NCBI GenBank assembly: GCA_902774365.1
Contig: CACYHX010000030.1
Coordinates: 1 to 64,000 of the forward strand
DNA length: 64,000 nt
Direction of reading: 5' to 3'
DNA from: an uncultured Bacteroidia bacterium
GTDB taxonomy: Bacteria > Bacteroidota > Bacteroidia > Bacteroidales > F082
Below are positions 1,202-34,162 of this stretch, piece after piece (positions within the stretch are counted from its first letter, which is position 1; each line of letters starts with the position of its first letter). The notes beneath the pieces were generated by a model, which worked only from the letters and a program-made list of their open reading frames with translations, had not been told where the DNA came from and did no database searches. A program made the position numbers and the translations under genes.

Positions 1202-2059
1202 ATGATGTTTACAAGGCGTAGAAAATGGCGTGTGCCGGCCGGAGAAGAGCCGACAGCATTGGACAAGAAAGTGATGGCATTGGAAGCCAAAGGCGCGATG
1301 GTGCCCAAGCGTACCCTCATCCGCACCCCCGAAGAGATTGAAGGTATCAAGAAGAGCGGCGTCATCAACACCGCCATCCTCGACCTCGTGGGTGAGAAGA
1401 TCCATGCGGGCATGAGTACATTGGAAATCAATGACTTGGTGCATAACTACACCATCGAACACGGTGCCATCCCTGCCACCTTGGGCTACGAAGGCTACCC
1501 GAAGAGTGTGTGCGTCTCCGTCAACGAGGTGGTCTGCCACGGCATCCCGTCTGCCAAGGAAATCCTCAAGGAGGGCGACATCGTCAACGTGGACTGCACG
1601 ACCATTTTGGACGGCTATTATGCCGACGCCTCACGCATGTATGTCATCGGTAAGACCTCGGCGCGCAAGCAGAAGCTGGTCGACGTGGCCAAGGAATGTC
1701 TCTATGTCGGCATGGAAGCTGCCAAGCCTTTCGGCTATGTCGGCGACATCGGCAACGCCATCCAACAGCACGCCCACAAGAACGGCTTCAGTGTGGTGCG
1801 CGACCTCTGCGGCCACGGCGTGGGACTGAAGTTCCACGACGACCCCGAGGTGTTGCACTACGGCAAGAAAGGCACGGGTATGCTGCTCGTTCCGGGCATG
1901 GTGTTCACTATCGAGCCGATGATTAACATGGGAACTTGGAAAGTCTTCATCGACAAGGCCGACGGCTGGACCGTCATCACCGAGGACGAGCTGCCCTCAG
2001 CCCAGTGGGAGCACACCTTCCTGATGACCGAGACGGGTCTGGAGATTTTGACGCATTGA
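1202..2059 (+). CDS. map: Type I methionine aminopeptidase
   Basis: Removes the initiator methionine from new proteins in the cytoplasm. From the ATG at 1202 the protein has 285 residues: a basic N-terminal extension of about 35 residues and then the pita-bread fold. The five metal ligands are readable: Asp131 (VNVD), Asp142 (YYAD), His205 (CGHGVG), Glu238 (FTIEPM) and Glu270 (QWEHT), with the substrate-binding His113 in CHGIP. A start at 1160 would lie inside the promoter, so 1202 (or the next ATG at 1205) is preferred. It is divergent from mutA. The extension resembles the linker found in longer type I enzymes, but no zinc-finger cysteines are present in it. Confidence 0.95.
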   Translation: MMFTRRRKWRVPAGEEPTALDKKVMALEAKGAMVPKRTLIRTPEEIEGIKKSGVINTAILDLVGEKIHAGMSTLEINDLVHNYTIEHGAIPATLGYEGYPKSVCVSVNEVVCHGIPSAKEILKEGDIVNVDCTTILDGYYADASRMYVIGKTSARKQKLVDVAKECLYVGMEAAKPFGYVGDIGNAIQQHAHKNGFSVVRDLCGHGVGLKFHDDPEVLHYGKKGTGMLLVPGMVFTIEPMINMGTWKVFIDKADGWTVITEDELPSAQWEHTFLMTETGLEILTH

Positions 2060-2072
2060 TAGATGAATCCTT

Positions 2073-2146
2073 GTAGAGACGGTGCACGCACCGTCTCATT
2101 TTACCCACAATGACCATTCTGAGACGGTGCATGCACCGTCTCTACA
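2073..2146. repeat. Inverted pair of REP-like palindromes (copies A and B)
   Basis: Copy A (2076-2097) has arms GAGACGGTGC and GCACCGTCTC around AC, preceded by TTGTA. Copy B (2121-2142) has the same arms around AT, followed by TACAAA. The asymmetric flank (TGTA/TACA) faces outwards on both, so the copies form an inverted pair, as in a BIME. The pair sits between map (plus) and the RAYT gene (minus), 12 bases from the transposase stop, and may act as a two-way terminator. Confidence 0.85.
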
Positions 2147-2158
2147 AAGAAAATACCG

Positions 2159-2767
2159 TTATTTTCTGGGTGTATAGAATTCATCACCAACCCAATTGGC
2201 CACATTGTTTTCGATATAGGTGGCGATGCGATTCATTTCGGGTTGGTCACGGATGATGCGGTCATAGAATCGGGGCTGCCAAGCAAAATAATTTGGGGTT
2301 TGGTTAGCATAATGGGTGACGGCAGATTTCATATTACCAATAGCAACAGCCAATCTGTGTTTTTGCTTGGATATGAATTGCATTTCCTCATCAACAGCAT
2401 CGTGTTTCCAGCGGTTAGATTGTAGAGACGGTGCATGCACCGTCTCAGAAATATCATTTTCATTTTGGGTTTGAGGAGACGGTGCGTACACCGTCTCTAC
2501 AATGTAAACAATCAAATGTAAATGATTTGGCATGATGACATACAAAGGAATTTCTGCGTATGGGTTATGCTGCTGTATTTTTTCAATACATTGTTTGGTG
2601 TATTCCCCAATTTCCGACAAAATCATTTCTCCATTCTCGATTTCTCCAAAATAATGTTCACGGTTTTTCGTACAAATGGTGATGAAATAGGCACCGCCGT
2701 CATAATCATGCCACCAGGCACGGGCAGATTCTATTCTGTATTTGTCTTGGAATTTGTCGTCGGACAT
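2159..2767 (-). CDS. REP-associated tyrosine transposase (RAYT, Y1/IS200-like)
   Basis: A single-strand HUH-type nuclease of the TnpA_REP group, thought to move or process REP palindromes. From MSDDKFQDKYRIESAR the protein has 202 residues. Seen: the N-terminal YFITICTKNREHYFG segment; the HUH motif in YVIMPNHLHLIVY; and the C-terminal WQPRFYDRIIRDQPEMNRIATYI block with the candidate catalytic tyrosines. Between the HUH core and this block the protein carries ETVYAPS and ETVHAPS, both encoded by REP palindromes in frame (2424-2501). A longer start at 2818 would lie inside another REP copy, so 2767 is preferred. Inverted REP pairs lie on both sides. It is probably chromosomal and domesticated rather than an active IS, because there are no IS ends. 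Confidence 0.88.
   Translation of the reverse strand: MSDDKFQDKYRIESARAWWHDYDGGAYFITICTKNREHYFGEIENGEMILSEIGEYTKQCIEKIQQHNPYAEIPLYVIMPNHLHLIVYIVETVYAPSPQTQNENDISETVHAPSLQSNRWKHDAVDEEMQFISKQKHRLAVAIGNMKSAVTHYANQTPNYFAWQPRFYDRIIRDQPEMNRIATYIENNVANWVGDEFYTPRK
2421..2501. repeat. REP palindromes C and D inside the RAYT reading frame
   Basis: Copy C (2425-2446, arms GAGACGGTGC/GCACCGTCTC, flank TGTA on the left) and copy D (2476-2497, right arm ACACCGTCTC with one change, flank TACA on the right) form an inverted pair 29 bases apart. Both are translated on the minus strand, as ETVHAPS and ETVYAPS, without a stop. Confidence 0.85.
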
Positions 2768-2790
2768 GTTTGTAATGATTTGGTTTTTTT

Positions 2791-2876
2791 TGTAGAGACG
2801 GTGCGTGCACCGTCTCAAATATAATCTGTTAATTTAATTTCTATGTTTATGAGACGGTGCGTGCACCGTCTCTACA
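2791..2876. repeat. Inverted pair of REP-like palindromes (copies E and F)
   Basis: Copy E (2795-2816) and copy F (2851-2872), both with arms GAGACGGTGC/GCACCGTCTC around GT. The flank is TGTA left of E and TACA right of F, giving the same outward-facing inverted pair as A/B and C/D. Copy F ends three bases before the stop codon of the MBOAT gene and may terminate that operon; copy E lies in the RAYT leader. Confidence 0.85.
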
Positions 2877-2878
2877 AT

Positions 2879-4744
2879 TTAAAATTGGAAATAGATAAAC
2901 GACTGCAGGTCGGCCGTGATGAATTGGTAGATCACGAACACGATGAGGGCGCAGACCACCACCATCAGCGGCACAGGTATCTTGGCGAACCAAATGCGAT
3001 AGCGCCGCTTGAAGTTCTCAGGCAGCCAGTGGATGATTAATCCAATCAGGATGAGTATGAACACGTTGCTGTAGTGCGTGATGATGGTGGGCACCTTGCT
3101 CCAGTCCCATGTGCTGCCCATCTGGTTGACCATGTTCTTGGCGGTGTTCCATGCTGTTTCGTTGGCCACGGCGGGGTCAAGGTTGGAGCCGCTGCGGAAG
3201 AATAGTCGTGTGAAGGTGATGAAGGTGAAGGTCTGGAAGATGGCCCAGGCGTCTTGCAGCCACTGCCATGCCTTCTTGCCGCCAAAGAGATTGTAGAGCA
3301 TGCGCACCATATTGCCCCCCAAGATGATCATGCACCACACGAATAGCACGGTGAACACGGGGCGCGGCACGAACACACACAGCAGACGCAGCAGGAAGGT
3401 GACGGCTAAAATAAATAAGGTGCGACCATAGACGCTCCAGTCTCTCCAGAACTTGTAGAATATCATGCCGATGCCGTTCAGGCCGCCCCAAATCATGAAG
3501 TTCCACGAGGCGCCGTGCCACAGGCCACCGAGCAGCATCGTGTCCATGGCGTTGATGTTGGTGGTGATGCTCTTGCGCTTCTCGGGCTTGAAGAGGGCCA
3601 CCAAGGCCACAATGACGGCGACGACACCCACGCCCACGCCTATCCACCAGCTGCCCGAGAGGAAGACGGCGATGGCGGCAATCATGATGATGATGCAGAA
3701 CGAGCCGAAGGTGGCGTTGCGGTTGCCGCCCAGCGGGATGTAGAGGTAGTCCTGCAGCCAACGCGACAGCGACATGTGCCAGCGTTTCCAGAACTCGCCC
3801 GGGTTCTTGGCTTTGTAGGGCGAGTTGAAGTTCTTGGGCAGGTAGAAGTCCATCAGCATGGCCACGCCGATGGCGATGTCGGTGTAGCCCGAGAAGTCGG
3901 CATACACCTGCAGCGAGTAGCCGAACAAGGCCATGAGGTTCTCGAAGCCGGTGTAGAGCAGCGGCTGCTCAAACACACGGTCGATGAAGTTGACGGCGAT
4001 GTAGTCGCTCAAGACGATTTTCTTCACCAAGCCGTTCATGATCCAGAACACGGCGATGCCGAACTGCTTGCGGCTGAGGAAGTATTTCTTGTGGAGTTGC
4101 GGGATGAACTCGTTGGCCCTCACGATGGGACCCGCCACCAGCTGCGGGAAGAAGCTCACGTAGAAGCCGAAGTCGAAGACGTTGCGGACCGGCTCGATGC
4201 GCTTGCGGTACACGTCCATGATGTAGCTGATGGCCTGGAAGGTGTAGAACGAGATGCCCACCGGCAGCAGGATGGTGTCGACGCTGAAGCGGTTGTCGCC
4301 CGTGATTTGGTTGCCCACCCACGAGAACACGTCGAACACGCGGAACTCCAATCCCGTCAGGTCGTTGACGACGTCGGTGAGGAAATAGGCGTATTTGAAA
4401 TAACACAGCGTCGACAGGTTGACGATGACACTCAGCGCCAACACGAAGTTACGGCTGCCGTCTTTCTTTCGGGAATGTAGCCACTTGCCTGCGAAGAAGT
4501 TATATAAAGCGGTGAATATCAGGATTAAGACGAAGAGTCCGCTGGTCTTGTAGTAGAAGAACAAGCTGACGAAAAACAGGAAGGTGTTGCGCAGCAGGCA
4601 CTTGTTTTTGAGCAGGCAGAAGAAGGCGAACACGATGGCGAAGAACGCCCAGAAATAGAACTGGGTGAACAGCAAGGGGTGGGCCTTGTCGAACGAGAAG
4701 ATCCGGGTGAGGAAGTCCAATGCTATTTCGGGGTTGAAGGTCAT
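2879..4744 (-). CDS. MBOAT-family O-acyltransferase (AlgI/PatA-like)
   Basis: A polytopic inner-membrane protein (621 residues) of the membrane-bound O-acyltransferase family, which moves acyl groups across the membrane for O-acetylation of an extracytoplasmic polymer. The conserved histidines are His323 in FWKRWHMSLSRWL and the catalytic His410 in GGLWHGASW; QLVAGPIVRA near 201 and YADFSGYTDIAIG near 281 are also typical. Between YIPLGGNR and GGLWHG there is an extra stretch of about 60 residues with two hydrophobic segments and a basic loop (KPEKRKS), longer than in AlgI. It is the last gene of the operon, one base after the stop of the preceding SGNH gene. The polymer acetylated is not shown by sequence; peptidoglycan is the best guess from the LysM partner. 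Confidence 0.9.
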   Translation of the reverse strand: MTFNPEIALDFLTRIFSFDKAHPLLFTQFYFWAFFAIVFAFFCLLKNKCLLRNTFLFFVSLFFYYKTSGLFVLILIFTALYNFFAGKWLHSRKKDGSRNFVLALSVIVNLSTLCYFKYAYFLTDVVNDLTGLEFRVFDVFSWVGNQITGDNRFSVDTILLPVGISFYTFQAISYIMDVYRKRIEPVRNVFDFGFYVSFFPQLVAGPIVRANEFIPQLHKKYFLSRKQFGIAVFWIMNGLVKKIVLSDYIAVNFIDRVFEQPLLYTGFENLMALFGYSLQVYADFSGYTDIAIGVAMLMDFYLPKNFNSPYKAKNPGEFWKRWHMSLSRWLQDYLYIPLGGNRNATFGSFCIIIMIAAIAVFLSGSWWIGVGVGVVAVIVALVALFKPEKRKSITTNINAMDTMLLGGLWHGASWNFMIWGGLNGIGMIFYKFWRDWSVYGRTLFILAVTFLLRLLCVFVPRPVFTVLFVWCMIILGGNMVRMLYNLFGGKKAWQWLQDAWAIFQTFTFITFTRLFFRSGSNLDPAVANETAWNTAKNMVNQMGSTWDWSKVPTIITHYSNVFILILIGLIIHWLPENFKRRYRIWFAKIPVPLMVVVCALIVFVIYQFITADLQSFIYFQF

Positions 4745-34132: not shown

Positions 34133-34162
34133 TGTGGAGACGGAGTGCACACCGTCTCCACA
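34133..34162. repeat. Palindromic repeat L (TGTGGAGACGG variant)
   Basis: TGTGGAGACGG (34133-34143), core AGTGCACA, CCGTCTCCACA (34152-34162), followed by TCTTTTTT. It is a variant of the GTAGAGAC palindrome placed 27 bases after glnS and looks usable as its terminator. Confidence 0.75.

Follow-up and report, generated by a model that had tools for sequence, protein, structure and literature searches.

The closest described relatives of the locus reported here are the TnpAREP transposases of subclass 2.4 (Quentin et al. 2018, PMC6006769), listed in a table of that paper as group 4 of Bertels, which have REPs in frame between the HuH and Y motifs. Shared features are GTAG-tagged flanking REPs, in-frame REPs between HuH and Y, a WQ motif, and a variable beta3-alphaC loop; Bacteroidetes are among the hosts of subclass 2.4, as here, and some relatives have double-foot REPs, which, the same paper proposes, form when an inverted dimer loses its center. 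GTAG REPs, their inverted dimers, RAYT genes flanked by REPs (REPtrons), and intragenic REPs in several species have also been described (Di Nocera et al. 2013, PMC3733652), and a figure legend in that paper has flanking repeats that overlap tyrosine transposase genes at the 5' or 3' end. Our locus resembles these in the GTAG tag, the inverted dimers, the RAYT placed between REPs, and the presence of REPs within genes; the in-gene examples noted from that account are in DNA repair and other genes, whereas here a REP of a low-copy family lies within the RAYT itself. Rickettsia palindromic elements, likened here by their description in PMC3733652, are likewise short palindromes in frame in protein genes, but no link to a transposase carrying its own repeat was found for them in that paper. 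Cutting of REPs by other TnpAREP enzymes, and a role for GTAG, have been reported (PMC8266576). The E. coli enzyme (PDB 4ER8) is an HUH/Tyr protein acting on GTAG hairpins (PMC8266576) and a relative of the RAYT considered here, from which it differs in belonging to subclass 2.2 and in its bulged REPs (PMC6006769). RAYTs have been called single-copy and vertically inherited (PMC8049555).

The window analyzed here is a stretch of 64,000 nucleotides from an uncultured member of the Bacteroidales (GCA_902774365.1, contig CACYHX010000030.1). At 2071-2877 it has six GTAG-tagged REPs arranged as three inverted pairs (REPINs) with tags facing outward, TTGTAG / CTACAA being on the outer side in each pair. 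REPIN A/B (2071..2147; REP A, 2071-2098; REP B, 2120-2147) lies 3' of the RAYT gene, 11 bp away from its stop codon. REPIN C/D (2420..2502; REP C, 2420-2447; REP D, 2475-2502) is within the gene, and REPIN E/F (2790..2877; REP E, 2790-2817; REP F, 2850-2877) is 5' of it, starting 22 bp ahead of the ATG and ending 1 bp from the stop codon of the neighboring MBOAT gene. Perfect arms GAGACGGTGC/GCACCGTCTC are present in five of the six REPs; in REP D a single base is changed, giving the right arm ACACCGTCTC. The pattern GAGACGGTG-N4-CACCGTCTC has six exact matches inside 797 bp of the locus and none in 100 dinucleotide shuffles of the window. Perfect hairpins (arms of at least 10, loop of at most 2) number nine in the window, five of them at the RAYT locus, compared with zero or one per sequence in 20 first-order Markov copies. 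Each pair is predicted to fold, when single-stranded, into one long DNA hairpin (z -9.7 to -12.1), and the spacer of C/D has modest homology to that of A/B. A seventh match to the REP pattern, with one mismatch, is a lone palindrome, GAGACGGAGTGCACACCGTCTC, at 34137-34158 of the window. The family has 15 matches at 13 distinct places (up to three mismatches) in its own genome, which is 82.6% complete, and six of these places belong to this locus; REPs usually exceed 100 copies per genome (PMC2817692), a number that the 13 places in this incomplete genome do not reach. An Rfam scan of 1900-3100 returned nothing at the gathering threshold, and PADLOC gave no match.

The RAYT (TnpAREP) gene is on the minus strand at 2159..2767 and encodes 202 aa plus a stop (ATG at 2767, codons 2162-2767, stop 2159-2161). 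Its product has MPNHLH (HUH) at residues 79-84, W163-Q164, and YIENN with Tyr184; MPNHxH at 79-84, W163, and Tyr184 are invariant columns across 18 homologues, as expected of a putative HUH-Tyr1 enzyme with a single catalytic tyrosine. Profile scores are low: 22.2 bits for Pfam Y1_Tnp, slightly below the cut-off of 23, and 58.4 bits for NCBIfam REP_Tyr_transpos, below the cut-off of 80 and divided over two stretches, the better at 22-91. The latter score is read as a core divided by a loop rather than as non-membership. PDB 4ER8 is the sole solved relative found by profile at E values up to 0.001 (E 2.2e-6, 40 profile positions aligned). REPIN C/D is translated in frame as IVETVYAPSPQ...ISETVHAPSLQ, between MPNHLH and W163/Tyr184, in what appears to be the beta3-alphaC loop (named after PMC6006769). 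This places cognate REPs both beside the gene, as in other RAYT loci, and between HuH and Y, as in subclass 2.4. Against the motifs of that subclass (NH[IFV]H, WQ, and YIxNNP), the present protein has NHLH, WQ, and YIENNV, so that WQ agrees and the other two are one residue off each (PMC6006769), a likeness drawn from motifs rather than from subclass profiles. Judged by its sequence, then, the locus is a REPtron: its RAYT, an HUH/Tyr single-strand transposase near TnpAREP subclass 2.4, has cognate GTAG-tagged REPINs on both sides. The sequence-only reading, which had placed the locus at 2073-2876, was correct to within 2 nt, and its account of six palindromes in outward-facing pairs, more common here than in shuffled or Markov controls, is borne out, as are the positions of A/B and E/F bordering the gene and of an in-frame C/D (ETVHAPS, ETVYAPS) between the HUH core and the C-terminal catalytic region.

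For comparison, 173 loci were gathered: the window, 120 stretches (most from the same genus, some from the same order, three from the window's own genome), and 52 further loci, mostly from Bacteroidales MAGs; a few short partial matches were left outside this set. Both halves of the enzyme lie within one open frame in 141 of the 173, and removal of the near-identical L189, L193, and L204 leaves a full-length set of 138. Within it, an internal REP was accepted if it had an arm of at least 10 or matched its own flank, and internal REPs are present by this rule in at least 76 of the 138, a lower bound because short-armed REPs, those of L084-L086 for example, fall below the hairpin threshold. In the remaining 62 an internal REP is absent at the threshold used. 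The sequence-only reading had considered an in-frame REP pair inside the transposase unusual; that part of its reading did not hold, since in-frame internal REPs are an already known habit of this RAYT family, described for TnpAREP subclass 2.4 (PMC6006769), while the RAYT locus itself, the three inverted pairs, and the in-frame loop insertion all stood.

Several features indicate that C/D is an insertion and not a protein motif, as far as comparison of homologues can tell: at this place they have different palindromes, often read in a second frame, or lack one, and their internal REPs mostly match their own flanks. The loop is longer with a REP than without (median 45.5 versus 25 residues), and tagged hairpins with arms of at least 10 occur in the loop of 66 of the 138 loci, compared with 2 loci for the N core and 4 for the C core. 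Internal REPs are read only in phase 0 in 43 loci, only in phase 1 in 32, and in mixed phase in one. Near relatives with another palindrome and another frame read GRDGVHTVST (L060), CRDVACNVS (L062), or variants of RDVPWRVST (L061 and L067, GRDVPWRVST). The nearest relative by tree, L123, has the REP family, frame, and peptide of the window; the closest DNA (L186, 81% over 347 nt) keeps an internal pair of the window type and is missing the first half of the gene. The suggestion that the insertion is tolerated in a loop thus finds support, and the same stretch encoded without a palindrome, which had been named beforehand as the mark of a conserved protein motif, was not seen in the homologue alignment, where different palindromes or none occupy this place.

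Internal REPs resemble those that flank the same gene. Over 58 full-length loci, identity between internal and own flanking REPs averages 0.915, versus 0.576 with flanks permuted (highest of 3000 permutations, 0.650), and the match to the own flank is at least 0.8 in 51 loci and lower in seven. Part of this agreement is by choice, because an own-flank match served as an acceptance criterion; in 28 loci assembled earlier, with internal hairpins picked blind to the flanks, the values are 0.913 versus 0.58, with a highest of 5000 permutations of 0.696. Internal REPs are present in both members of 266 RAYT pairs whose cores are at least 60% identical. In 84 of these pairs the internal REPs are unlike (below 0.75), and in 33 of the 84 each internal REP matches its own flank at 0.85 or better; in the other 51 the flanking REP is out of reach or the match is weaker. 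The frame differs in 72 of the 266 pairs. On a core tree these differences require at least seven changes of frame and at least 26 of REP presence, although the latter depend on the threshold for calling presence and may include missed REPs. REP number also changes, as in three loci with ORFs 91.5-96.9% alike over aligned parts, of which L072 has two internal REPs and a degenerate unit, L069 two, and L078 a single one in the double-foot form of PMC6006769. By these comparisons, internal REPs change family together with the flanking ones, and frame and number also vary among relatives.

Truncated genes offer a view of what internal REPs may do to their host gene. They were sought with N-half and C-half queries, which favor breaks near the loop, in 99 genomes of the genus and added to an earlier list. 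Once contig ends, repeats, and orthologues are removed, 18 cases are left. Excluded fragments are L220 (which duplicates L219), L229 and L231 (regarded as the orthologues of L225 and L230), and L118, L160, L169, L170, L223, and L233 at contig edges; also outside the count are L094, whose deletion is internal to the gene, and a group with frameshifts or stops (L098, L110, L131, L149, L163, L181, L228, and L238). The idea that L219 and L220 are two copies of one element was discarded, as the two represent a duplicate assembly of a single locus (99.98% over 3954 bp). Some cases share genomes: L097 with L116 (same order, outside the genus), and L219 with L221 and L222. Breakpoints were placed by eye and then by alignment to full-length relatives or self-comparison of the locus.

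Nine of the 18 breaks are clearly at a REP. Homology to the gene starts at the outer tag in L186 and L219, the break is within about 4 nt of the outer tag in L115 and L116, and in L105, L218, L225, and L226 the joint is inside REP homology common to a flank. Self-comparison of L097 puts its break at the tag, with the sequence past the REP repeating the 5' flank from the tag onward. Three more cases are weaker: L222 retains half a REP and its alignment ends short of the REP, in L227 the break and a decayed REP are about 5 nt apart, and L230 has two breaks, one in the N core and one inside the REP palindrome. The other six (L221, L224, L232, L119, L239, and L240) are broken away from any REP. 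Measured against the share of the gene made up of REPs (0.071), nine of 18 breaks at REPs has a P of 1.2e-6 and 12 of 18 a P of 2.0e-10; against the share of the whole loop (0.193), the values are 3.3e-3 and 1.5e-5. Among the truncated RAYTs aligned here, breaks at REPs thus exceed what the fraction of the gene occupied by REPs would predict, which suggests that internal REPs are also places of RAYT gene breakage. Among the individual cases, L119 combines a 5' truncation with an internal deletion that joins the end of the HUH region to the inside of the right internal REP. L239 and L240 belong to different RAYT sub-clades; both have lost the 5' part up to nearly the same residue, have their upstream neighbor in common, and may represent one event. 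In L218, a full-length RAYT is followed about 140 bp downstream by the REP-headed 3' half of another RAYT.

Flanking DNA gives some indication of how the truncated genes arose. At both ends of L219, L222, L115, and L230, and at the upstream end of L105, the flanks are those of full-length relatives, so that the five cases fit deletion in place; mobilization of RAYT halves as sub-elements was set aside for them for this reason. In L226 and L227, flanks of different RAYT loci are joined, and these look like rearrangements. Relatives sharing flanks with L186, L116, and L097 were found nowhere among the gathered loci. When L226, L227, and L225 are set beside L084, L091, L092, L201, and L236, upstream and downstream RAYT flanks occur in several combinations, as would be expected if RAYT loci marked the ends of chromosomal rearrangements.

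The RAYT gene of the window lies between a convergent gene of methionine-aminopeptidase type (called map here; Peptidase_M24; plus strand, 1202..2059) and, upstream on its own strand, a gene for an MBOAT O-acyltransferase (minus strand, 2879..4744). Map and MBOAT face each other within 3.2 kb (distances between matches) in 7 of 40 genomes of the genus; a RAYT occupies the junction only in the window (826 bp) and is absent from the other six. The junction is free of a GTAG REP in G019 (89 bp) and G012 (161 bp) and has one double-foot REP of another family in G002 (71 bp) and G033 (68 bp). In G024, whose neighboring genes are 99-100% identical, it measures 3153 bp and contains one REP and other DNA, and in G018 it measures 1642 bp and contains an ATPase-like frame (named by eye). 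Another repeat, GTTACCGCC...GGCGGTAA, is found in the junctions of G012 (L175) and G018 (L241), where it flanks the ATPase-like frame of the latter. Because six other genomes that keep the junction are without a RAYT, the REP-RAYT-REP unit seems to have come in recently, either by transposing there or through transfer with recombination. A transfer through homologous recombination would leave the same picture here as transposition, and the intergenic spacers are too divergent to fix an exact target site. The empty-junction pattern was seen only for the unit of the window. A REPtron at a junction that is RAYT-free in six other genomes, together with internal REPs that look like preferred sites of breakage, makes both the mobility and the self-inactivation of REPtrons directly testable within one genus of many genomes. 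Neither gene breakage at internal REPs nor concerted turnover nor a comparison with empty junctions was found in the passages of PMC6006769 covered here, and no paper on such breakage was found among the matches listed in the open-access literature (supplements aside). Turnover of internal REP families in parallel with the flanking ones, with changes of frame, truncation at REPs, and RAYT-free map-MBOAT junctions were likewise not found in print there; we consider the turnover and breakage data to be the new part, with moderate strength.

The reading that we favor, and consider likely as a whole, is that of a cognate REPIN inserted and tolerated in the REPtron's own RAYT, with fragility as the price for the gene and recent entry of the whole as a unit. 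C/D would be a further cognate REPIN, inserted into the variable loop that separates the HUH motif from helix alphaC, probably through REP cutting and joining by the RAYT itself, which we assume to act on its cognate REPs as studied members do. Survival there could be explained because the loop bears extra residues and because a GTAG REP can be read without a stop in two of its three frames, the third reading TAG. Once inside, the pair would share the fate of the flanking copies and provide repeat pairs across which half of the gene can be lost. As truncated RAYTs break at REPs beyond expectation, several of them in place, the internal REPIN may well be a liability that makes the gene self-limiting, and a regulatory role would be superfluous; the unit would have entered the junction recently as one piece bounded by the outer tags. 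The breaks may be made by the enzyme itself, cutting at the GTAG tag with the internal REP as an alternative element end, rather than by ordinary recombination or slippage between repeat copies. Such cutting is possible but on the whole unlikely: the position of the joints at or within about 4 nt of the outer tag in four truncations, the repeated flank of L097, and the known cutting beside REPs by other TnpAREP enzymes, with its role for GTAG (PMC8266576), all speak for it, yet deletion between flanking and internal REPs as direct repeats predicts an identical joint, four other joints lie within REP homology common to a flank, and L230 is broken inside the palindrome. We regard as quite unlikely a scheme in which the internal REPIN is a built-in self-limiting device, more processing of cognate REPs leading to more flank-to-internal deletion that destroys the gene, by RAYT or by repair at cuts, with REP family, frame, and copy number rewritten from the flanks.

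A selected regulatory role, either as an mRNA hairpin that slows translation or as a site in its own coding DNA through which the RAYT represses itself, seems similarly improbable. The predicted RNA hairpin in the coding region is very stable (-45.3 kcal/mol, z -11.0), and internal REPs are frequent and mostly cognate though apparently costly; against this, they go undetected in 62 of 138 full-length relatives, vary in number, frame, and exact place, and have in-frame counterparts elsewhere in this genome, in the unrelated gene for a TPR protein, which favors mere tolerance over regulation. Very little weight can be given to the proposal that the enzyme needs VETVxAPS as a conserved protein motif, from whose coding the palindromic DNA would follow. 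Peptides of similar pattern do occur in the same loop of relatives, that of L123 being identical, but other near relatives use another frame and different palindromes, palindromes of the same families also lie in non-coding DNA flanking the genes, and the spacers between repeats vary; the proposal was rejected on the differing frames and palindromes of near relatives. An assembly artefact, with repeats mis-joined in a metagenome-assembled genome, is equally hard to credit. The draft is in 79 contigs and its repeats invite misassembly, yet internal REPs recur in at least 75 other full-length loci on other contigs and in other genomes, the frame is open with a conserved core, and the locus lies 2 kb inside a contig of 89.7 kb. 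Tolerated insertion of a cognate REPIN therefore remains our preferred account of C/D.

REP-like peptides also occur at other places in proteins. The TPR-protein gene mentioned above (L052, near 70141 of contig C17) has a frame at 915-2765 for a 617-aa protein with a lipoprotein-like start (by eye), with such in-frame peptides at as many as three positions: VETRRATSLQ, RGVSLQ...RNASNAS, and a REP pair read as VETLRATSQ...KTLHATSLH. In L113 and L101, REP-like peptides are found at a second place in the RAYT, before the HUH motif and after an FGxI stretch, which may be another tolerant loop.
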